From Rhodanobacter sp. T12-5 (lineage in GTDB: Bacteria > Pseudomonadota > Gammaproteobacteria > Xanthomonadales > Rhodanobacteraceae), in the NCBI RefSeq assembly GCF_008329435.1, contig NZ_NPKN01000001.1, positions 744,001 to 808,000 on the forward strand: a DNA stretch of 64,000 nucleotides, read 5' to 3'. Made by a program: the position numbers and the translations under genes. How positions within the stretch are numbered: the stretch's first letter is position 1; the number at the start of each line of letters is the position of its first letter. Of the stretch, positions 3,815-13,266 are shown piece after piece. The notes under the pieces were generated by a model. The model was not told the origin of the DNA. It was given only the letters and a program-made list of their open reading frames with translations, and searched no databases.

Positions 3815-3881
3815 TGAACCCTCCCATGCCACTGAACGCCGGCGTCAAGCGGCGGCGCCGCGATCCGCCTTGACCGAAATG

Positions 3882-4277
3882 TCAGGTGACGGCTTCGACA
3901 AACACCGTCTGTGCGCCTTTTCTTTCGCAGGTGAGGTTGACCGTGCGACCGATGGCTCGCGTCCGATGCACCGTACCCGCCGGGATGACGACGCTTTGCC
4001 ATTCGGTGAGCTCGATACAGTTGCCGCCCGCGAGATCGATTTGCAGCGTGCCCGCCACCACCAGAAACAGCTCGTCGGAATCCGGATGCTGATGCCAGCG
4101 ATACTCGCCCTCGAACACCGCCAGCCGCATGCAGTCGGAGTTGACGTCGACCAGCACCTGGTTGCGGTAAGACTCGGTGACTTCGGCTTGTTCCGCGCGA
4201 ATGTCGATGACCGCCAAAGCGGGATGGCGTGCCATCTGCGCTGAATACTCCTGTGCGGAAGGGAATTGCGATGTCAT
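3882..4277 (-). CDS. Cupin-domain protein
   Basis: 131 residues from the ATG at 4277, which has GGAG at a proper distance; the open frame continues upstream to 4511 but that part has no coding character. The core is one small cupin barrel: the EYRWHQHPDSDELFLVVAG segment carries the first cupin motif (H-x-H, then E) and VVIPAGTVHRT the second (PxGxxH), so the usual metal ligands are present. The N-terminal part is typical of single-domain cupins annotated as possible mannose-6-phosphate isomerase-like or sensor proteins. No catalytic function can be named. It lies between the ABM and DUF1737 genes on the same strand. Confidence 0.75.
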   Translation of the reverse strand: MTSQFPSAQEYSAQMARHPALAVIDIRAEQAEVTESYRNQVLVDVNSDCMRLAVFEGEYRWHQHPDSDELFLVVAGTLQIDLAGGNCIELTEWQSVVIPAGTVHRTRAIGRTVNLTCERKGAQTVFVEAVT

Positions 4278-5122: not shown

Positions 5123-5935
5123 TCATCGGCCATGCACGGGTGAAGATGGCTTGCGCCCACGGACGGAAATCATGGGCGGTTGGGAAAGGTCAAGCATTCC
5201 GGCGCGCACGTTCTCAAGGTGCTGCTCGATCTCGTCATCCGCGACTATGCCATGGCTCAGCAGATCGCTTCGTATCATCTTTATCGTGGCAATTTCCAAT
5301 GGTACGCATTCGGGCAGGGCGATCGGGAAATACGCCTCGGCCGCCATGTCCGCCAGGCCAGCTTCGCGAAACATCCGCGGCAGCTTTCGGCCGAAAGACA
5401 GGTCGGCGCCCCGATTCGACAACAGCGCCCGGAACCCCGATCTGATCCTGTTGGCCAGTTCCTGCTCGGCGCCGTATGGGTCGATGCAGCTCAAAGGCTG
5501 CAGTGCAGGATCGGCATCTTCGACCACCAGCCAGCCGCCGGGTTTCAGCGCGGAAATCATGTTGCGGAAGGCGCGCTCCCGTTCGGGTACGTGAACCAGG
5601 ACCAGCCGGGCGTGCACCAGATCAAACAACTCATCGGGCGGTGGGTCGCGGGCCACGTCATGCTTGCGCACTTCCACGTTGCGGGTCGCCGCCTCTTTCG
5701 CCCAGGAGTCGTCGATGTCGGTTGCCAGTACGCGACCGGCCTGCCCGACGCGCTCGGCGATCATCCGAGCCAGCGCAGGCCCTCCGGCACCGACCTCCCA
5801 GCAGCGCCATCCGGCAGTCATGCCACAGGCATCGAACTGACGAAGCGTGCCTGGATTGAACAGCGCCGACAGTGCCGTGAAACGCTGTGCCGCTTCCGTG
5901 TTCCGGTTTTCCAGCAGGTAATCAGTCTCGGACAT
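5123..5935 (-). CDS. SAM-dependent class I methyltransferase
   Basis: 270 residues from the methionine at 5935 (MSETDYLL), which has GAGGAAG directly upstream; two in-frame starts further out (5986, 6016) lack one. The Rossmann-like domain shows motif I (EVGAGGPALA), the acidic end of strand 2 (ATDID) binding the ribose, motif II-like DLVHARLVL, and the LKPGGWLVVED strand of motif III. The C-terminal helical part is variable, as in small-molecule methyltransferases. Closest in style to UbiE/tellurite-type enzymes, but the acceptor cannot be identified. It closes the minus-strand accessory block. Confidence 0.82.
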   Translation of the reverse strand: MSETDYLLENRNTEAAQRFTALSALFNPGTLRQFDACGMTAGWRCWEVGAGGPALARMIAERVGQAGRVLATDIDDSWAKEAATRNVEVRKHDVARDPPPDELFDLVHARLVLVHVPERERAFRNMISALKPGGWLVVEDADPALQPLSCIDPYGAEQELANRIRSGFRALLSNRGADLSFGRKLPRMFREAGLADMAAEAYFPIALPECVPLEIATIKMIRSDLLSHGIVADDEIEQHLENVRAGMLDLSQPPMISVRGRKPSSPVHGR

Positions 5936-6112
5936 CTCTTCCTCGGTTCGAGCGTCATGTTGCGAGTTAAACGAGCTGTTCGCCATGAATACACCATTTC
6001 GATATGGTCGATCCAACTAGGCCGGTTACAAGCAGTCTGACAAGGTAAAATGGGGGCGGAGAAAAATCGAATGGAATTAATTTCCTGCGCCCCTTTTTTT
6101 CCTCGCTTCCTC

Positions 6113-6544
6113 TTAGTTGATGATTTCACCCATGCCCGTTTCGATGCGACTTCTCAATTGCTGGATGAACCCCGGGTCGTAGGGTTCCCAGCTTTCAAGT
6201 TCGCCAATGATCTTTAAAGGAAAATCACTCCGGTATGACTGAGTTGGGTTGCCTGGGAACTTCTTGTTTGTGACATTCGGGTCATCTTCGAATTTTCCCG
6301 TCGGTGCAATGACATAAACTCGCGGCCTTCCATCACCCTTGGCCATTTCAGCAGCAAGACCAGCTCCCTTTGGCAAGGCTGTGAAATAGATGTGATTCAT
6401 CACAATCCTATCGTCGTAGTTGGATATGAAACCTGGAGTTAACAAATCGCCGACCGATAGGCTTGCCTTTGTACCGTGGTAGAACGGACCAGCCACCGAA
6501 TCGCAGTTTTCATGGGAGACGGGAATCCACTCGTCATCATGCAT
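6113..6544 (-). CDS. arr: NAD+-rifampin ADP-ribosyltransferase (Arr)
   Basis: 143 residues, the length of Arr enzymes. The family signature is complete: GPFYHGTKA near the start, LLTPGFISNY, NHIYFTALPKGAGLAAE, VYVIAPTG, FEDDPNVTNKKFPGNPT and SYRS. Arr enzymes transfer ADP-ribose from NAD+ to the C23 hydroxyl of rifampin and inactivate it. The gene is visibly less GC-rich than the chromosomal genes on either side, matching the cassette array that begins 860 bp further on. No attC site or ribosome binding site of ideal spacing is seen around it (GAGG lies 11 bases upstream). A transferred origin is likely, but a resident chromosomal arr is possible. Confidence 0.93.
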   Translation of the reverse strand: MHDDEWIPVSHENCDSVAGPFYHGTKASLSVGDLLTPGFISNYDDRIVMNHIYFTALPKGAGLAAEMAKGDGRPRVYVIAPTGKFEDDPNVTNKKFPGNPTQSYRSDFPLKIIGELESWEPYDPGFIQQLRSRIETGMGEIIN

Positions 6545-6734: not shown

Positions 6735-6955
6735 GCGGTAGTTCGTGCCTGAGGGTCGCTATCTCCTGGCCGCGTGGCACGCCCGGCCCGAGAAAGCCTT
6801 CGTCTTGCCGGCCTGCAGTTCACGCCGTCGACGCCCAGAACCCCTGCACCCATGCCGATGTCGCGGATCACCTGACTGAGCTGCGCACCCGGGAGACGGG
6901 TCAGGGCGACGGCTTCGCGTGTGAGCTCGTCGTTGAACTTTCTTCGCTTGGACAT
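6735..6955 (-). pseudogene. IS3-family transposase OrfA remnant, frameshifted
   Basis: The minus strand opens with MSKRRKFNDELTREAVAL, the N-terminal helix-turn-helix of IS3 OrfA proteins. After GMGAGVLG the match moves to another frame (RRRRELQAGKTKAFSGR), then to a third (PRGQEIATLRHEL). These three pieces together give the usual OrfA order, so at least two indels have disrupted the gene. No OrfB (DDE domain) follows. The relic lies immediately downstream of the last glyoxalase cassette, where an attC site would be expected. Confidence 0.75.
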
Positions 6956-7002
6956 GACACTCTTTTTTTTGGCCATGATCGGCCTTCATGGAAGTGCCCG
7001 CA

Positions 7003-7392
7003 TCAACGGGGTAGAACCCCACTGACCATGACGTAATACCCATCAGGATCGCGCAGAGCGAATTCTCTGGTGCCCGTGTTGGGACTGACATTAGGCTCCT
7101 CCGCAAGCGCGGCTACAAGAGAGCATGCGCGAGACAGCGTCCCATCAAAATCATCCACGCGGAAAAAAAGAAGCAGCCCGTTACCAGGCTCCGCGCGTTC
7201 CGGACTGGCGAGGGATGGATGCTCGTGGTCTCCCCACCGATGAAGGCAGAGTAGGACGGTCCCGTCTGTGTCGATGATCTGCCCAAAATAGGCATGGGCC
7301 GGCTGCGCGGCAGGCAGCCCCAAAAGCGACTGATACCACGCGAAGCTGCGAGTAACGTCAGTGACACCGATGATTGTCCACAAGCGCTTCAT
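7003..7392 (-). CDS. Glyoxalase/bleomycin-resistance (VOC) cassette protein
   Basis: 129 residues. The protein shows the VOC opening (LWTIIGVTDVTRSFAWYQSLLGLP), a mid-chain GQIIDTDGTVLLCLHRWG strand with a histidine, and the closing FALRDPDGYYVMVSGV strand. Its ATG lies 14 bases after the GTTAGGC core of attC A, so it occupies the last recognisable cassette of the array; its own attC is missing and an IS3 relic lies downstream instead. VOC proteins are frequent integron cargo and can sequester or modify drugs or aldehydes. No specific substrate can be assigned. Confidence 0.8.
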   Translation of the reverse strand: MKRLWTIIGVTDVTRSFAWYQSLLGLPAAQPAHAYFGQIIDTDGTVLLCLHRWGDHEHPSLASPERAEPGNGLLLFFRVDDFDGTLSRACSLVAALAEEPNVSPNTGTREFALRDPDGYYVMVSGVLPR

Positions 7393-7405
7393 AGTTGGTT
7401 CTGCG

Positions 7406-7467
7406 GCCTAACGCTGGAGTTGAGCGGCGCGCGGCTATTCGCGCGTCCGCTTGGACGATTGGTTAGA
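7406..7467 (-). repeat. attC site A
   Basis: The site runs from GCCTAAC (7406-7412) to GGTTAGA (7461-7467), with inner arms GTTGAGCGG and CCGCTTGGAC and a GCGCGCGGC/GCGCGC stem between. Read on the minus strand it has R''-L''-L'-R' order, matching the gene direction. The stop codon of the upstream HEAT-like cassette gene lies inside it (7463-7465). Confidence 0.85.
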
Positions 7468-7942
7468 ACGACCGGCCGGGAACATCGCCCCGGTTGACGC
7501 TCCAAAATGTACTACCAGAATGTTTGCGGTCGACAAAGTAGTGATGGTTCTTGCTCGAGATTGCGTCTATGGCGGCGGCAGCGGCAGCGCGGGTCTTGGG
7601 ATCTGGGTGAACTTGCAGTGACGTGAGCTGGGGAATGACGTCGGGCCGCAGCGAGTACGCCAAGATTGAACAGGCATATTCCCGAACGATGTATGAGCGG
7701 TCGGACAGTGCTGATAGCGCGAGTGACACGACATCTTGACGCACCCGAGCATAACGAGGGAGCCAAAAAAGAATCCTGGCTCGACCGCTGCCTCGCCGTA
7801 TGAGTAGATATGCGCTCGCAAGCAAGGGAATTAAGGGCTCAAGGCCGTGCTGTTGAAACAAGCGATGCTCGGCCTGGCCAACGTCACCGCCCTTAACCTG
7901 GCTATACAGCGCTACAAGCTCATCAACTGTAGGCAGAGACAT
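7463..7942 (-). CDS. HEAT-repeat-like cassette protein of unknown function
   Basis: 159 residues from the ATG at 7942, eight bases after the attC B core; the open frame continues upstream through attC B but that part is not expected to be coding. About residues 65-130 look like two short helical repeats (VRQDVVSLALSALSDRS, then VREYACSILAYSLRP and TRAAAAAAIDAI) of HEAT/Armadillo type, usually a protein-binding scaffold. No signal peptide or membrane segment is seen. The TAA stop is part of attC A, typical of integron cassette genes. Function unknown. Confidence 0.65.
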   Translation of the reverse strand: MSLPTVDELVALYSQVKGGDVGQAEHRLFQQHGLEPLIPLLASAYLLIRRGSGRARILFWLPRYARVRQDVVSLALSALSDRSYIVREYACSILAYSLRPDVIPQLTSLQVHPDPKTRAAAAAAIDAISSKNHHYFVDRKHSGSTFWSVNRGDVPGRSF

Positions 7943-7947
7943 AAGAG

Positions 7948-8004
7948 TTCTAACGCTGGAGTTGAGCGGCGGCGTAGCCGTCCGCCTCGAACGAGTGGTT
8001 AGGT
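7948..8004 (-). repeat. attC site B
   Basis: Core TTCTAAC at 7948-7954 and GTTAGGT at 7998-8004 enclose the arms GGAGTTGAGCGGCGGCG and CCGCCTCGAAC. It is nearly identical to site D (8953-9009). The stop codon of the membrane-protein cassette (7999-8001) lies within it. Confidence 0.88.
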
Positions 8005-8400
8005 GGCCACTCGGTGAACCACGAATTGAAAGTACAGAAATGCGCAAACCGCCAAGGCGCAAATTGCAAATTGCACCTTGCGCAGGAACATGTATCGGTC
8101 AGCATTGATAGTGAGCCCGACGTCGTGCAGATGTTTGTAACCACGCTGAGATAACCACATTGATAATTCGCTGTACTCTGTAGGTGGCCGCACGTCTAAA
8201 TTTATTGGTCTCGAAGTAGCGTAGTCCCTAAATCTCGTGAAATATGTGGGTTCTGGGCTGCCCATTGCAAGCCATAAAGGCATATCAACTTGCTTTAGAC
8301 GCGCCACTACACGCCTTAGGCTGATCTGCATTGCGACGTACGTGATCAGGAAAGCCGCGCCCGCCAAGATTATATATACAGTGGGTATGTAGTCGATCAT
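7999..8400 (-). CDS. Cassette-borne small membrane protein, unknown function
   Basis: 133 residues from the ATG at 8400; a GTG two codons upstream is also possible. Residues about 6-28 (YIILAGAAFLITYVAM) and 108-129 (FAICALAVCAFLYFQFVV) are hydrophobic helices flanking a polar central domain of about 80 residues containing RPINLDVRPPTEYSELS. A two-helix inner-membrane topology is likely. I recognise no family. It starts a few bases after attC C and stops inside attC B, and is low in GC. Confidence 0.6.
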   Translation of the reverse strand: MIDYIPTVYIILAGAAFLITYVAMQISLRRVVARLKQVDMPLWLAMGSPEPTYFTRFRDYATSRPINLDVRPPTEYSELSMWLSQRGYKHLHDVGLTINADRYMFLRKVQFAICALAVCAFLYFQFVVHRVAT

Positions 8401-8404
8401 GGGC

Positions 8405-8462
8405 ACCTAACGCTTGAGGTAAGCGGCGGCGGAACGCCGTCCGCTTGACCGAGTTGTTGGGC
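8405..8462 (-). repeat. attC site C
   Basis: Core ACCTAAC (8405-8411) and GTTGGGC (8456-8462) enclose GGTAAGCGGCGGCG and CCGTCCGCTTGACC. The arms diverge from sites A, B and D but keep the same length and stem position. Confidence 0.82.
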
Positions 8463-8533
8463 GGCAGGCACCACGTTCGCGATGCAATGGCGGCCAACGG
8501 AGATCCAATAATGGAATCATCCGTTGCGTCGCA

Positions 8534-8887
8534 TTATTGGGTGAGAAACATGCCAACAACTTTGGCGTCCTTTGCGTTGAGGTCAATTTCGAGTCCACCA
8601 CCTATGACATCGTGGCCGAGTGGCTTCTCGCGAACATGCCATACCCCGTTAGACAAAGTCGCGATCATGCTCTGTTGCCAATAAAGCTCCGAGACCTTCG
8701 GCAAGGTGGGATTTGTTGAGAACCAGATGGCACGAGCAATTGTTATTGCTGCTACGCCGTTTCTGATAACACCTTGCGATGGAGGCTCCCACGTAACCCG
8801 ATTGTCCTTTGTGCCGGAGTGCCAAGTGGCACACGCGGAGACGCACAGCACAATCAACACTGGTGCACTACGAAGAAAGGCAGTCAT
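8534..8887 (-). CDS. Cassette-borne lipoprotein with NTF2-like immunity-type fold
   Basis: 117 residues from the ATG at 8887. Residues 1-17 form a lipoprotein signal peptide ending in the lipobox VSAC, so the mature protein should be lipid-anchored. The rest (GVAAITIARAIWF, LSNGVWHVREKPLG, GGGLEIDLNAKDAKVVG) resembles the NTF2-fold immunity proteins of the YbbC/YhhH type, in which an alpha helix is followed by a 'GVW-V' strand, a glycine-rich turn and an 'EI-K--G-V' strand. In that family the proteins neutralise polymorphic toxins; here this is an inference from pattern only. An in-frame start at 8905 is possible. The gene lies between attC D and attC C. Confidence 0.6.
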   Translation of the reverse strand: MTAFLRSAPVLIVLCVSACATWHSGTKDNRVTWEPPSQGVIRNGVAAITIARAIWFSTNPTLPKVSELYWQQSMIATLSNGVWHVREKPLGHDVIGGGLEIDLNAKDAKVVGMFLTQ

Positions 8888-8952
8888 TGTGTCACGTGAT
8901 CTCATGCTCCTGCATTCCACCCGGATTACTTTAACCGATGCCGTCCACTGCC

Positions 8953-9009
8953 GCCCAACGCTGGAGTTGAGCGGCGGCGGAGCCGTCCGCCTCGAACGAG
9001 TGGTTAGGT
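8953..9009 (-). repeat. attC site D
   Basis: Core GCCCAAC (8953-8959) and GTTAGGT (9003-9009). It differs from site B at only a few positions over 57 bases, showing the homogeneity typical of sedentary chromosomal integrons. Confidence 0.88.
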
Positions 9010-9018
9010 GCCGCCCGC

Positions 9019-9414
9019 TTACGGTACATAGACTAGATGAATCTGCATGAGGAAGCCCGGATTGGCCTCATTTACTCGTACGTGCAACACCAAATCGCTT
9101 TGACCCTCCTCTTGTGTCCAGAGGTCTACTAGAGCATCCCAGTGGTCGCCGTACCAGATACAGACGGAAGAACCCCAGGTTGTGTCTGGCAATGCTATGA
9201 GTGTCGCGCCGTAGTCCTGAAGATATTCGCGGATGCACGAAGCGGTCTCGGCGGATACCGGTGCGACGTTGGCCACCCTTTTCTCTAACCCGTAGTCACC
9301 AGCGACGAAAGCCTCAACGATGGCACTGAGAGTTTCTCGCCACGCCGTCGGGATCGGTCCCTCAGCCTCATTTTTGAGCGCGATAACTTCGCCGTTGGGA
9401 CTCGTACTCTTCAT
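9019..9414 (-). CDS. Cassette protein of unknown function (DUF7668-like)
   Basis: 131 residues. A helical start (WRETLSAIVEAFVAGDY) is followed by CIREYLQDYGATLIALPDTTWGSSVCIW and a conserved-looking LVDLWTQEEGQSDLVLHVRV segment, ending in HLVYVP. The 'DL-T-EEG-SDL-L' plus terminal 'VYVP' pattern recalls a widespread small-protein family of unknown function; I am not certain of the assignment. No signal peptide or membrane helix. The start follows attC E and the stop precedes attC D, so this is a normal cassette. Confidence 0.6.
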   Translation of the reverse strand: MKSTSPNGEVIALKNEAEGPIPTAWRETLSAIVEAFVAGDYGLEKRVANVAPVSAETASCIREYLQDYGATLIALPDTTWGSSVCIWYGDHWDALVDLWTQEEGQSDLVLHVRVNEANPGFLMQIHLVYVP

Positions 9415-9437
9415 GCTGCGAGGCGTTCCATTGCGGC

Positions 9438-9527
9438 ACCTAACGCAAAAGTTGACCGGCTGCGGCGTGCAGCGCTCGGTTGTCGCGACATCCTATACCC
9501 GCAGTCCGGTCGAACGCATAGTTCGGG
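9438..9527 (-). repeat. attC site E (long, degenerate)
   Basis: ACCTAAC (9438-9444) and GTTCGGG (9521-9527) form the outer cores. The inner arms AAAGTTGACCGGCTGCGG and CCGCAGTCCGGTCGAAC pair, and a longer central loop makes the site about 90 bp. The GTTCGGG core departs from GTTRRRY by one base. Confidence 0.68.
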
Positions 9528-9968
9528 AGCGAGAGTGGCGGGGGCCCGATGGCTTGATCTGGTCGTGTCATTTCCGATAGCGGACCGCAGCGACGACGCT
9601 GTGCGTCTGAAACCAGCAAGGCGCCTGTGGCGGTCGGATCAACACAGTTATCCGACCGCCACAGGCGCCTTGCTGAGTATGCGTGGTCGCGCAGCTTCGT
9701 CAATCAGGGTGCACCGATATCTTACGCAGCGACTTTCCCCTGAAACGTGTCCGCCGCTCTTGATGCCGAACGCTTATTAGACCCCACATCGGGTCATAAG
9801 CACTGATGGTGGGCCGTCTGGTGGCCACGCGTCAACCGCAAATATTCTCGTTCGGTCAGGGTGTTGCGCCATAGCCGGTGTTCTGGGCGACGTAAATCCT
9901 TCATTTGCTTATTGCGCCACTTGAGGTCATAACGCTTATCACCTCGTTTCCGCAGCATATGCACGGTT
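9528..9968. other. Gene-free leading end of the cassette array
   Basis: No convincing gene is present in these 441 bases. From 9528 to 9771 the segment looks like a non-coding cassette, closed by GCCGAAC (9765-9771), which on the minus strand reads GTTCGGC like the core of site E. It contains a perfect 25-bp inverted repeat (listed separately). From 9771 onwards there are two similar imperfect hairpin units, at 9772-9800 and 9907-9934, with the shared pattern GCTTATT...GGTCATAA. These might be the relic of an attachment site or simply a small repeat. The GH13 amylase gene ends at 9969. Confidence 0.5.
9615..9674. repeat. Perfect 25-bp inverted repeat with 10-base loop
   Basis: The left arm (9615-9639, starting AGCAAGGCGCCTGTGG) and right arm (9650-9674, ending CCACAGGCGCCTTGCT) are exact reverse complements separated by CAACACAGTT. 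Either strand can fold into a very stable hairpin. There is no T-run after it, so it is not an ordinary terminator. Confidence 0.9.
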
Positions 9969-11651
9969 TCAGCGTTCTGGATGCCCTCGTTCGTCCATCA
10001 GCCGTGTCAGCTCCGCGACCAGGTCCGCACGCTTCGCCACCGCATCCAGCAGGTAGACCTGCACGTCGTGCGCGGCGACGTCGGCGTGCAGGCTGCCGCC
10101 CTCGGACACATTGATCGCAGCGCCGCTGAAAGCTGACGTCCAGCGACCGGCCTGCAGATAATCGCTGACGTCGAACTGCGCAGTGGTATCGCCCTTGTTG
10201 AGCAGCACCAGCGCGATCTGGTGCATGTCGCCTTTCTGGTACACGCGATAGAACGCGGCCTGGTTGCCGGCGAAGCGGAGCGGCAGCATCAGGCCGCGTT
10301 GCAGGGCGGGTGTCTTCTCGCGCAGCGAGGCGATGCGCTTGAGATGCTGATAGATCGGACTCTTCGATGCGGCGTCGACACGCTGCTGGCCGTAGTAGTT
10401 GCGGTTGCCCTGATGTTCGGCCTTGCCGCGTTCGAAGCCGGTTTCGGAGCCGTAGTAGATGGCGGGGATGCCGCGCGCGGTGAACAGCCAGTTGTTGGCG
10501 TCGATGAAGCCGTTGTCGCTGGCGTCCAGGCGCGCCATGTCGTGGTTGTCGTAGAAGGTGACCAGTTCGTAGGGATTCGCGTAGGGGCCGTTGGTGAGGT
10601 ACAGGCGGTCGAGCAGTTTGGCGTAGTCGCTGCCGGGGTGTTCGAACACGTCGGCGATGCGGCCGCGCAGCGGGAAGTCGAGCACGCTGATGCCGCCGTT
10701 CTGCGGCCAGGTGTACTGGCCGATGTTGTCCGGGCTGTAGTCGAAGGCTTCGCCGAACATGAAGAAGCCGGGATGCCTGGCGCGGATGCGCGCGGCGAAC
10801 TGTTTCCAGAAGGTGGTGGACATGTGGCTGATGGTGTCGATGCGGAAGGCATCGGCGCCCTGGTCGGCCCACTGCAGGTAGGCGCCGACGAAATATTCCA
10901 GCACGGCCGGGTTCTGATCGTCGTTGTTGGACAGCTGCACCAGGTCGTCGTACGCGTGATAGAAGCGGTGCAGCGGATTGCGCACGGGGTCGAGCCGGTA
11001 CGGCGGCAGGTTCTGTTCGTCGGCGACCAGCTTGCCGGCCTTGTCGTAGATCTGGCCGAACATCGGCTGCGCCTTCGGCATCGTGAAGGCGGGCGAGCCG
11101 TGGTTGGCGACGATGTCCTGCACCACCTTGAGTCCATCCTTGTGCATCGCTGCGGTGAACTGGGCGAAGTCGAGACCCTTGCTGGGCAGGTGTTCGTCGA
11201 GCTTGTAGAAGTTGACGCCCCAGTAGCCGTGGAAGCCGGTCTTGCCACGGTCGGTGAATTTCGAGCCCCAGCTGACCGGGTCGCCGCCGGTGAACGCCTC
11301 GTTGGGGTTGTCCACGATCGGCGTGATCCACACGGCGCCGAAGCCCATGCCGCGGATGTAGCCGGCGTTGTCCAGCACGCCCTTGAAGTCGCCGCCGAGG
11401 TAGCCGATGTTGGCGCTCTGGCCTTTCGGTGCGCCGGGCACCGGGATGTCGAAGGTGGGGTGCGCGCCGCCCTGGTCGCGCTGGTCGTTGGACGGATCGC
11501 CGTTGACGAAGCGGTCTGTCATCACGAAGTAGATCGCGTTGGATGCGAACGGTGCGTCGGTGCCGACGAAATCGGGCGGCGTGCTGGCGGCGTGGGCGAG
11601 GCCGGCGGCCAGCATCATCGCGAGGGCCGGGAATGCGGTTTTGCGAAGCAT
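9969..11651 (-). CDS. Secreted GH13 alpha-amylase-family enzyme
   Basis: 560 residues from the ATG at 11651, which opens a signal peptide (MLRKTAFPALAMMLAAGLAHA); the frame stays open upstream only because it runs through a REP pair. Conserved GH13 regions are all visible: region I-like DIVANHGSP, region II DAFRIDT with the nucleophile aspartate, region III GEAF with the acid/base glutamate, and region IV FYDNHD. A long GGDFKGVLDNAGYIRGMGF start and C-terminal beta domain resemble cyclodextrin-glucanotransferase/amylase types. It follows the MFS transporter gene on the same strand with a REP pair between, and likely hydrolyses starch or maltodextrins outside the inner membrane. Confidence 0.9.
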   Translation of the reverse strand: MLRKTAFPALAMMLAAGLAHAASTPPDFVGTDAPFASNAIYFVMTDRFVNGDPSNDQRDQGGAHPTFDIPVPGAPKGQSANIGYLGGDFKGVLDNAGYIRGMGFGAVWITPIVDNPNEAFTGGDPVSWGSKFTDRGKTGFHGYWGVNFYKLDEHLPSKGLDFAQFTAAMHKDGLKVVQDIVANHGSPAFTMPKAQPMFGQIYDKAGKLVADEQNLPPYRLDPVRNPLHRFYHAYDDLVQLSNNDDQNPAVLEYFVGAYLQWADQGADAFRIDTISHMSTTFWKQFAARIRARHPGFFMFGEAFDYSPDNIGQYTWPQNGGISVLDFPLRGRIADVFEHPGSDYAKLLDRLYLTNGPYANPYELVTFYDNHDMARLDASDNGFIDANNWLFTARGIPAIYYGSETGFERGKAEHQGNRNYYGQQRVDAASKSPIYQHLKRIASLREKTPALQRGLMLPLRFAGNQAAFYRVYQKGDMHQIALVLLNKGDTTAQFDVSDYLQAGRWTSAFSGAAINVSEGGSLHADVAAHDVQVYLLDAVAKRADLVAELTRLMDERGHPER

Positions 11652-11684
11652 GTATGCGTCCTGTTGCAGCAAAGGTGGGGGCGC

Positions 11685-11757
11685 TGTGGGAGCGACTTCA
11701 GTCGCGATGCTTTTCGAATACCCGGCTGAGAGCATCGCGACTGAAGTCGCTCCCACA
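11685..11757. repeat. REP pair (inverted), GGAGCGACTTCAGTCGC family
   Basis: TGTGGGAGCGACTTCAGTCG opens at 11685 and its reverse complement closes at 11757, with a short non-repetitive loop; the arms match perfectly for 25 bases. It lies between the MFS gene and the amylase gene and may stabilise or attenuate their shared transcript. Confidence 0.88.
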
Positions 11758-11760
11758 GGG

Positions 11761-13266
11761 CTAGCCTGCCGGCAATGGTTCGGTGCTGGCCTCCGGCTCG
11801 TGCACGCGCAGCGTGAACAGCCCGGCGATCAGCAGGCAGACGCCGCCAAGCGCCAATGCCCAGATCGGCTGGTTGTGGAAGCACAGTCGCAGCAGCAGGC
11901 CGAGCACGCTGGCGGCCAGCAGTTGCGGGATCACGATGAAGAAATTGAAGATGCCCATGTAGACGCCCATCTTCGCCGCCGGCAGGTTGTCCGACAGCAG
12001 CGCGTACGGCAGCGACAGGATCGAGGCCCAGGCGAAACCGACGCCGACCATCGAGGCGAGCAGCCACTGCGGGTCGCGGATATACAGGAACGACAGCAGC
12101 CCCGCGCCGCCCAGGCACAGGTTGATCAGGTGGCTGATGCGAATGCCCCAGCGACGCACCATCAGCGGAATCACCACGGCGGCGACCGCCGCGAATCCGT
12201 TGTACGCGGCGAACAGCACGCCGACCCAGTTGGCGCCTTCGTTGTACAGCGCCGAGCCGACGTCGGTGGTGCCGTAGATGGTCTGGGTCACGCCCGAGGT
12301 GGTGTAGATCCACATCGCGAACAGGGCGAACCAGGAGAACAGTTGCACCCAAGCCAGCCGGCGCATCGAGGTGGGCATGCCATAGAGATCGGCCATCACT
12401 TCGCGCAGCATGCCGCTGCTGCGGGTGCGGCTGAGCCAGGCGAACAGCAGGCCGGACACGATCAGGCCGCCGGCCAGCACGTAGACCTCTTTCTCCAGCG
12501 CGAAATGCCGGATCGCGAACAGCACCGCGATGCCGACCAGCAGCAGCACCACGCCCAATCGCCAGGCACGCGAGGTGTCCGCTGCCGGTTGCTGCGCGAC
12601 GTCGTCGGTGAACGATTGCAACTGTGCAGGCGGATATTCGCGCGTGCTCAGGATCGTCCACAGCACCGCGCCCAGCAACACCGCACCGCCGGCGTAGAAC
12701 GCGTACTTCACGGTGTCGGGAATGCCACCGTGCGGGGCCACGTTGGCCACGCCGAACCGCGCCAGCAGCCACGGCAGTGCGGAGGCGACCACCGCGCCGA
12801 TGCCGATGAAGAAACTCTGCATCGCGTAGCCGGTGGGGCGTTGCTGCGTCGGCAACTGGTCGCCGACGAAGGCGCGGAATGGCTCCATCGATACGTTGAT
12901 CGACGCGTCCAGGATCCACAGCAGGCCGGCGGCCATCCACAGCACCGGTGCGTTCGGCATCCACAGCAGGGCGAGGGAGGCGAATATCGCCCCGACGAGA
13001 AAATACGGTCGGCGCCGACCCAGCCGGTTCCAGGTGCGGTCGGAGAAGTGGCCGATGATCGGCTGCACGATCAGGCCGGTCAGCGGCGCAGCGATCCACA
13101 GAGCAGGGATGTCGTTCACGTCGGCGCCCAGGGTCTGGAAGATCCGGCTGACGTTCGCGTTCTGCAGTGCGAAGCCGAACTGGATGCCGAGGAAACCGAA
13201 GCACATGTTCCAGATCTGCCAGAACGACAAGGTCGGCTTGGTATTCAAGGTTGCGCGGTCCTTCAT
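11761..13266 (-). CDS. MFS sugar transporter (SLC45/GPH-like), probably maltodextrin import
   Basis: 501 residues with about 12 membrane helices. The first helix region (FLGIQFGFALQNANVSRIFQTLG) and the loop 2-3 motif RTWNRLGRRRPYF are typical of the SLC45/sucrose-type MFS symporters that carry maltose or other disaccharides in Xanthomonadales. The start overlaps the stop of the upstream glycosidase gene (ATGA at 13263-13266), so the two are translationally coupled. Together with the amylase downstream this gives an operon that cleaves alpha-glucans outside and imports the products across the inner membrane. The sugar specificity is inferred from the neighbours. Confidence 0.85.
   Translation of the reverse strand: MKDRATLNTKPTLSFWQIWNMCFGFLGIQFGFALQNANVSRIFQTLGADVNDIPALWIAAPLTGLIVQPIIGHFSDRTWNRLGRRRPYFLVGAIFASLALLWMPNAPVLWMAAGLLWILDASINVSMEPFRAFVGDQLPTQQRPTGYAMQSFFIGIGAVVASALPWLLARFGVANVAPHGGIPDTVKYAFYAGGAVLLGAVLWTILSTREYPPAQLQSFTDDVAQQPAADTSRAWRLGVVLLLVGIAVLFAIRHFALEKEVYVLAGGLIVSGLLFAWLSRTRSSGMLREVMADLYGMPTSMRRLAWVQLFSWFALFAMWIYTTSGVTQTIYGTTDVGSALYNEGANWVGVLFAAYNGFAAVAAVVIPLMVRRWGIRISHLINLCLGGAGLLSFLYIRDPQWLLASMVGVGFAWASILSLPYALLSDNLPAAKMGVYMGIFNFFIVIPQLLAASVLGLLLRLCFHNQPIWALALGGVCLLIAGLFTLRVHEPEASTEPLPAG

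Follow-up and report, generated by a model that had tools for sequence, protein, structure and literature searches.

Introduction

Integron cassette arrays without an adjoining integrase gene are termed clusters of attC sites lacking integron-integrases (CALINs). In the IntegronFinder 2.0 survey, their number is similar to that of complete integrons (2961 and 2760, respectively; this survey and the papers given by PMC number are cited from the parts of their text that were accessible). It has been reported that CALINs of Xanthomonas occupy recurrent chromosomal positions, with intI located elsewhere or lost, and that CALINs can be mobilised in trans (PMC12444791). Since the detection of attI by IntegronFinder is confined to class 1 (PMC9024848), attI-led arrays would be filed as plain CALINs. 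Here, we analysed a window, a stretch of 64,000 nucleotides from Rhodanobacter sp. T12-5 (genome G000, 3.98 Mb in 19 contigs; contig C8, positions 744001-808000), in which a preliminary description had recognised a CALIN. The label is correct by definition, since five clustered attC sites at 7406-7468 to 9438-9527 (site E weak) and one at 3831 are present with no IntI nearby. In addition, the array is headed by an attI core.

The window array resembles the CALINs of IntegronFinder in its attC cluster, in having no intI nearby and in its single gene orientation, but it differs from them in being led by an attI core. With the Xanthomonas CALINs it shares the bacterial order, the location of intI elsewhere or its loss, and the recurrent chromosomal position; the accessible text on those CALINs mentions no attI and describes arrays that are stable after intI loss, whereas the arrays at integrase-less loci examined here differ between species that have the locus in common. 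A sedentary chromosomal integron likewise has a chromosomal location, an attI and attC sites that are alike within the genome, and the complete integron on contig C12 of our genome resembles one. The genomes studied here differ in that one genome holds several attI-led platforms, the majority of which lack an adjoining intI. The delta-attI cassettes of mobile integrons (PMC12901181) show that attI-derived sequence works with IntI1 outside its usual place, although in that case the attI piece lies within a cassette, while here attI heads a chromosomal array. Related work concerns Treponema integrons (PMC3607928), Shewanella CALINs (PMC9229058), accessory deformylase cassettes (PMC12690207) and Xanthomonadales attC sites (PMC8352920). 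Our literature search, which reached few of the subscription journals, returned, as judged from titles, abstracts and accessible text, no paper that describes attI conserved at integrase-less arrays whose cassettes turn over, or an IntI serving further attI sites in trans. CALINs at recurrent loci are already known; what appears to be new here, from sequence comparison, is the attI-led integrase-less array with turnover of its cassettes.

Results and discussion

Three attI-led platforms in one genome

When we searched the genome with the IntI profile, five matches were obtained on C12 and C14, and only one, on C12, was above the family cut-off. It represents an intact IntI (488 bits, 390-residue open frame) that heads an array with seven attC matches, the farthest of which is weak (25.1 bits). 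No integron integrase was found on contig C8 in this search, in agreement with the earlier statement that the window holds none, and no IntI piece was found by tblastn within 2.6 kb of the window attI, so that the locus is not a complete integron.

The 25-mer of the C12 attI was found without mismatch at three places of the genome, namely C12, window positions 9769-9793 and C19:1282, and the reversed-pattern control gave none. In many named loci of the Lysobacterales, this motif also precedes intI, with 0-6 mismatches. Thus, the window array is led by an attI whose core is intact (25/25) and whose outer part has decayed; an initial idea that this attI is cut off after about 41 nt was rejected, as the alignment with the related species G152 shows a decayed leader instead. 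The C19 attI is preceded by two attC sites and followed by a decayed intI start (tblastn residues 35-60) and then by purB (adenylosuccinate lyase, 672 bits), and its outer part retains 28/30 positions of the C12 attI. The genome therefore contains one complete platform and two integrase-less platforms, the window array and the C19/purB array, which answers the suggestion that an intI gene should be sought elsewhere in the genome.

The attC sites were scored with a covariance model built here (R1) from nine seed sites, comprising window sites B, C and D and six from two other arrays of the genome; this model took the place of the published taxon-specific one for the Xanthomonadales-like class. 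All five sites that had been described as having conserved cores and separating single genes were scored as attC, including A and E, which lie outside the seed, and the spacing was as described. The model also added a sixth site at 3831-3887. When the window alone was scanned without filters, sites A to D and the sixth site (E=4.5e-7) were below E=1e-6, and the next-best remaining match had E=0.37. Site E, the weakest of the five and one with a long terminal loop, gave only a partial match in that scan (12.9 bits, E=1.1); it is accepted as attC with the support of its position at a cassette junction. Rfam at gathering thresholds gave no match in the window. Folding of single sites as DNA yielded z-scores of -0.40 to -2.97 for the minus strand, on which the genes lie, and of -0.59 to -1.96 for the plus strand, often with structures unlike the canonical attC hairpin, so that we dropped single folds as evidence. 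Pair counts on the nine seed sites showed no covariation above shuffles, since the seed sites are too alike.

All five array genes lie on the minus strand, and the stop codons of two of them (at 7463 and 7999) fall inside the following attC, as had been noted. The interval first given, 7003-9771, covers the array, but its end falls inside the overlooked attI core and the sixth attC lies outside it. The near identity of sites B and D (98% over 54 nt, 7952-8005 against 8957-9010) had been taken to suggest either a resident chromosomal integron of the Xanthomonadales type or a moved piece of one. The Xanthomonadales type fits the closest named integrase records to the IntI of the genome, which are from Rhodanobacter and Dyella. 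A moved piece is not supported, since the array has its own attI core, and the MFS gene and amylase that flank it also flank an attC-bearing locus in G152. An array with its own attI core and conserved flanks is best read as a platform that lost intI rather than as a moved fragment.

attI loci across the family

We then counted attI cores in 233 genomes of the family, using the C12 25-mer with at most three mismatches. The core occurred at 66 places in 34 genomes, 23 of which have at least two, and the reversed control gave none. For 58 of the 66 loci, the neighbourhood was analysed; among the eight left out, five adjoin an intI match by coordinates, and one of these five, G182:C36, entered the comparison of attI sequence types only. 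A full intI lies beside attI at 15 of the 58 loci and is lacking at 43. A piece of intI detectable by tblastn is still present at 20 of these 43, and none is detectable at 23. On the array side, attC sites were found at 36 of the 43 integrase-less loci; 37 of the 43 have more than 520 nt of sequence there, and among these L156 is the sole one without attC. All 191 attC sites on the array side have the expected orientation, and the four on the other side all belong to L151. Genomes assembled in one or two contigs (G067, G096, G157 and G207) also hold integrase-less attI, indicating that such loci are not only an effect of assembly.

The outer part of attI, positions 26-55, lies outside the search pattern. 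When we compared one pair per locus (six pairs), 165 of 180 outer positions were conserved, compared with 920 of 1125 in the adjoining leader (pooled p=3e-4).

Orthologous integrase-less loci with different arrays

In most pairs, at most 1.5 kb of the array side was compared; longer stretches were used for G094/G096, G162/G154 and G000/G152 alone. The cleanest orthologous integrase-less locus is that of G094 and G096. Its left flank matches over about 14 kb in four blocks at 83-92%, and its right flank, starting 2 nt before the attI core, is 93% identical over 2.5 kb. Between these flanks, the two arrays (5.5 and 9.6 kb) have no match of at least 150 nt at E<=1e-10, and flank identity ends at the attI crossover. 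The 400 nt from attI into the flank on the intI side are 94.75% identical without a gap, which suggests that the loss of intI is common to both genomes and older than the differing arrays. At the purB locus, three species have the same junction of intI fragment and purB, and their arrays have no cassette-length match; in G162 and G154, the distal flank of this locus is also common (937 nt at 83.7%). Likewise, the flank of L122 and L127 is 97% identical over 400 nt, and in the 1.5 kb compared, their arrays match only at attC length (up to 63 nt).

Some genomes also have a cassette in common between two of their arrays. A G096 cassette is present, at 99.3% identity over 426 nt, in the intact and the integrase-less arrays, which are about 604 kb apart by coordinates, and the match ends within 1-2 nt of the attC edges in both. 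In G162, the integrase-less array contains three cassettes related at 91.6-93.3% to one cassette of the intact array, with ends within 8 nt.

Proposed explanation and alternatives

Based on these observations, we consider it fairly likely that the window array is an integrase-less integron platform whose own intI has been lost, and that the C12 IntI is able to serve satellite platforms in trans. The window platform would once have carried intI and then lost it. The C12 IntI would recombine attC sites of free cassettes into a satellite attI, and it would also excise cassettes from satellite platforms. At the family level, such a step in trans is suggested first because the differences between orthologous integrase-less arrays reach as far as the attI crossover, and second because near-identical single cassettes occur in intact and integrase-less arrays of one genome. 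An IntI encoded elsewhere would best explain the array differences of G094/G096, the purB locus and L122/L127 together with the cassette sharing in G096 and G162. The pooled excess of conservation in the outer attI is a further point in favour. With somewhat less assurance, we lean towards a distributed integron, in which one IntI, sometimes more, serves several attI-led platforms, and the integrase-less arrays are working satellites with attI under selection. If conserved attI and service in trans apply to many CALINs, these would be extra capture sites, and tools that take no account of attI would undercount cassette exchange. The loci described here provide natural pairs for this question, with different cassettes at the same integrase-less site.

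Here, we need to consider several points that weigh against this explanation. First, all support for action in trans is comparative. Second, the excess conservation of outer attI is significant in only three of the six pairs; it is absent in the two closest, L122/L127 and L133/L134, and in L163/L168. Third, the attI at the resident intI of G065 and of G154 differs in sequence type from their orphan attI, and G066, G143 and G159 hold an orphan attI with no IntI match at 1e-30 among the matches listed. These last three genomes could serve as natural controls, in which the arrays should be frozen. Fourth, other shared cassettes fit less well. One in G157 (98.3%) lies in two arrays that are both integrase-less, with one end 15 nt inside attC, and the only IntI match of that genome among the matches listed is without the first 37 model positions; another in G174 (98.7%) has bounds 22-25 nt inside attC, with one end far from any detected attC. 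Finally, at the window itself, the outer attI (9794-9823) retains only 13/30 positions of C12, and the first cassette beside attI, which has no open reading frame (ORF), has counterparts next to attI at the same locus of G159, where 69 nt could be compared (90%), and in the intact G171 integron (88%).

A dead relic, in which intI was lost long ago, the cassettes are frozen and the attI core has merely not yet mutated, is about evenly balanced between being right and being wrong. The window speaks for it, with its decayed outer attI, an insertion sequence (IS) remnant in the array, one cassette without attC and a first cassette common to G159 at the same locus. The family speaks against it, since orthologous integrase-less loci carry unrelated arrays up to the crossover nucleotide, and single cassettes of G096 and G162 are 91.6-99.3% identical to the intact array of the same genome. 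For the window, the junction of attI and first cassette may be old and frozen, as it is common to G159 and G171, and with its decayed outer attI the platform may be drifting into a relic. Thus, action in trans at the window's own array is possible but doubtful, and the array may now be frozen; the C19 platform looks like the better candidate for a working satellite.

Whole arrays could instead have been swapped between strains by homologous recombination with no IntI in trans, for which similar flanks would give an opportunity during transformation. We regard this as unlikely, because the change-over lies at the attI crossover and not in the flanks, and because the sharing of single cassettes in G096 and G162 is bounded by attC; moreover, the donors would have to share the intI deletion, so that differing arrays would still have arisen after the loss. 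Insertion by the resident IntI at a non-attI site of the attG type, as cited for E. coli in PMC12444791, is highly improbable, since the target at the window is an attI core identical at 25/25 positions and the orthologous G159 locus retains attI, the intI leader and a 167-residue tblastn match to intI.

The amylase locus across the genus

The alpha-amylase gene on the former intI side of the window array has an orthologue in 27 of 45 genomes of the genus. Among the 26 loci, counting that of the window, scanned downstream of it (some stretches end at contig ends), 13 have attC in the expected orientation, and 12 have none; in G182, attC is present in the opposite orientation. The 13 include seven with a single site, one of which, in G156, is weak (22.2 bits). 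The 27th locus, that of G159, ends 67 nt beyond attI. No IntI lies near the amylase by coordinates in any of the 27 genomes, among the matches listed. The window array and the attC-bearing locus of G152 have the same MFS gene and amylase as flanks, and between these two genes they have no common match of at least 100 nt; the attI of G152 is degenerate, so that this pair alone does not show action in trans. Depending on the species, the attI at this locus belongs to one of three sequence types (L206/L209/L217/L218, L210/L215/L228 and window/L172), which suggests that integron platforms were replaced repeatedly here.

Two further candidates were set aside. The intact integron of G162 was considered as the equivalent of the window locus, since both arrays adjoin an ABM gene, but the amylase-side genes were not found there and the neighbour is a large unrelated ORF. 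In addition, the purB-locus attI of G162 equals its intact attI, as expected of concerted evolution within a genome; other genomes were mixed, and we make no such claim.

Cassette genes and neighbouring features

The features of the array and its surroundings are collected in Table 1.

Table 1. Positions of the array features and neighbouring genes in the window.
Feature	Position	Strand	Remarks
Alpha-amylase gene	9969-11756	-	synteny anchor throughout the genus; flanks array on former intI side; profile match and orthologues
attI core	9769-9793	-	platform end of array; 25/25 identical to C12 attI and to C19 copy
ORF-less first cassette, body	9529-9768	-	no evident gene; 26-bp perfect inverted repeat 9614-9639/9650-9675
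attC E	9438-9527	-	attC of ORF-less cassette; 29.7 bits, E=2e-4; outside model seed
DUF7668 protein, cassette gene	9019-9414	-	131 aa; PF24705, 109 bits
attC D	8953-9009	-	80.4 bits; in seed
Cassette gene, function unassigned	8534-8920	-	128 aa; no Pfam match; lipoprotein-like N-terminus by eye
attC C	8405-8462	-	67.8 bits; in seed
Cassette gene, function unassigned	7999-8406	-	~133 aa; no Pfam match; hydrophobic segments by eye; stop inside attC B
attC B	7948-8004	-	79.9 bits; in seed
HEAT-repeat protein, cassette gene	7463-7942	-	Pfam match; stop inside attC A
attC A	7406-7468	-	42.1 bits; outside seed
Glyoxalase/VOC-fold protein, cassette gene	7003-7392	-	PF00903, 36 bits; cassette truncated, own attC lost
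IS3-family remnant, ISXc8-like	6922-7028	-	76.9% over the stretch to annotated ISXc8-like elements; cuts array
arr, rifampin ADP-ribosyltransferase	6113-6544	-	149 bits (cut-off 130); between IS remnant and distal attC
Sixth attC	3831-3887	-	distal remnant of array; 36.5 bits, E=3e-6; after cupin gene whose stop falls inside the site

The HEAT-repeat cassette gene has 92% amino acid identity to a gene of the integrase-less array L151 in G171. The glyoxalase cassette loses its attC at the IS3 remnant. By eye, the C19 array (L012 1-130) also ends in a similar IS3 remnant, so that both integrase-less arrays of the genome do so. Past the remnant, towards the sixth attC, lie arr and genes for a methyltransferase, a second VOC protein, a DUF1737 protein and a cupin. 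The arr gene is likely a former cassette, now without attC of its own; relatives at 73-78% amino acid identity are present in the attC-bearing loci L124 and L126, and in the plasmid collection the best match was 80% (Burkholderia), with 1723 of the 1734 matching records below 60%. PADLOC assigned no defence family to nine of the ten genes of the region, and its match of the methyltransferase (5123-6016) to mad2, at 49.5 bits, was put down to a methyltransferase fold common to both. When 9400-10000 was scanned for promoters, a single consensus match was obtained, compared with 0.3 expected, and no terminator was found.

The ORF-less cassette (9438-9768 with its attC and inverted repeat) is present in six of the 233 family genomes. 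In the window, in G159:C8 and in G171:C14, it occupies the first position at attI, and the spacing to intI makes the same probable for G171:C3 and G175:C10, in the manner of a fixed leader cassette.

A segment of about 1.5-1.6 kb lies 0.3-0.8 kb from attI in L130, L131, L132, L152, L167, L169 and L170, and L169 holds a second copy 2.5 kb from attI. Within a genome, copies from different arrays are 98.4-99.7% identical; copies from different genomes are about 78-91% identical. The segment may be an insertion element with cassette arrays as its target. Finally, the amylase and the transporter gene next to it are separated by a 31-bp inverted repeat at 11681-11761 (arms 97% complementary, with 19 nt between them), which resembles a palindromic repeat of the intergenic kind.

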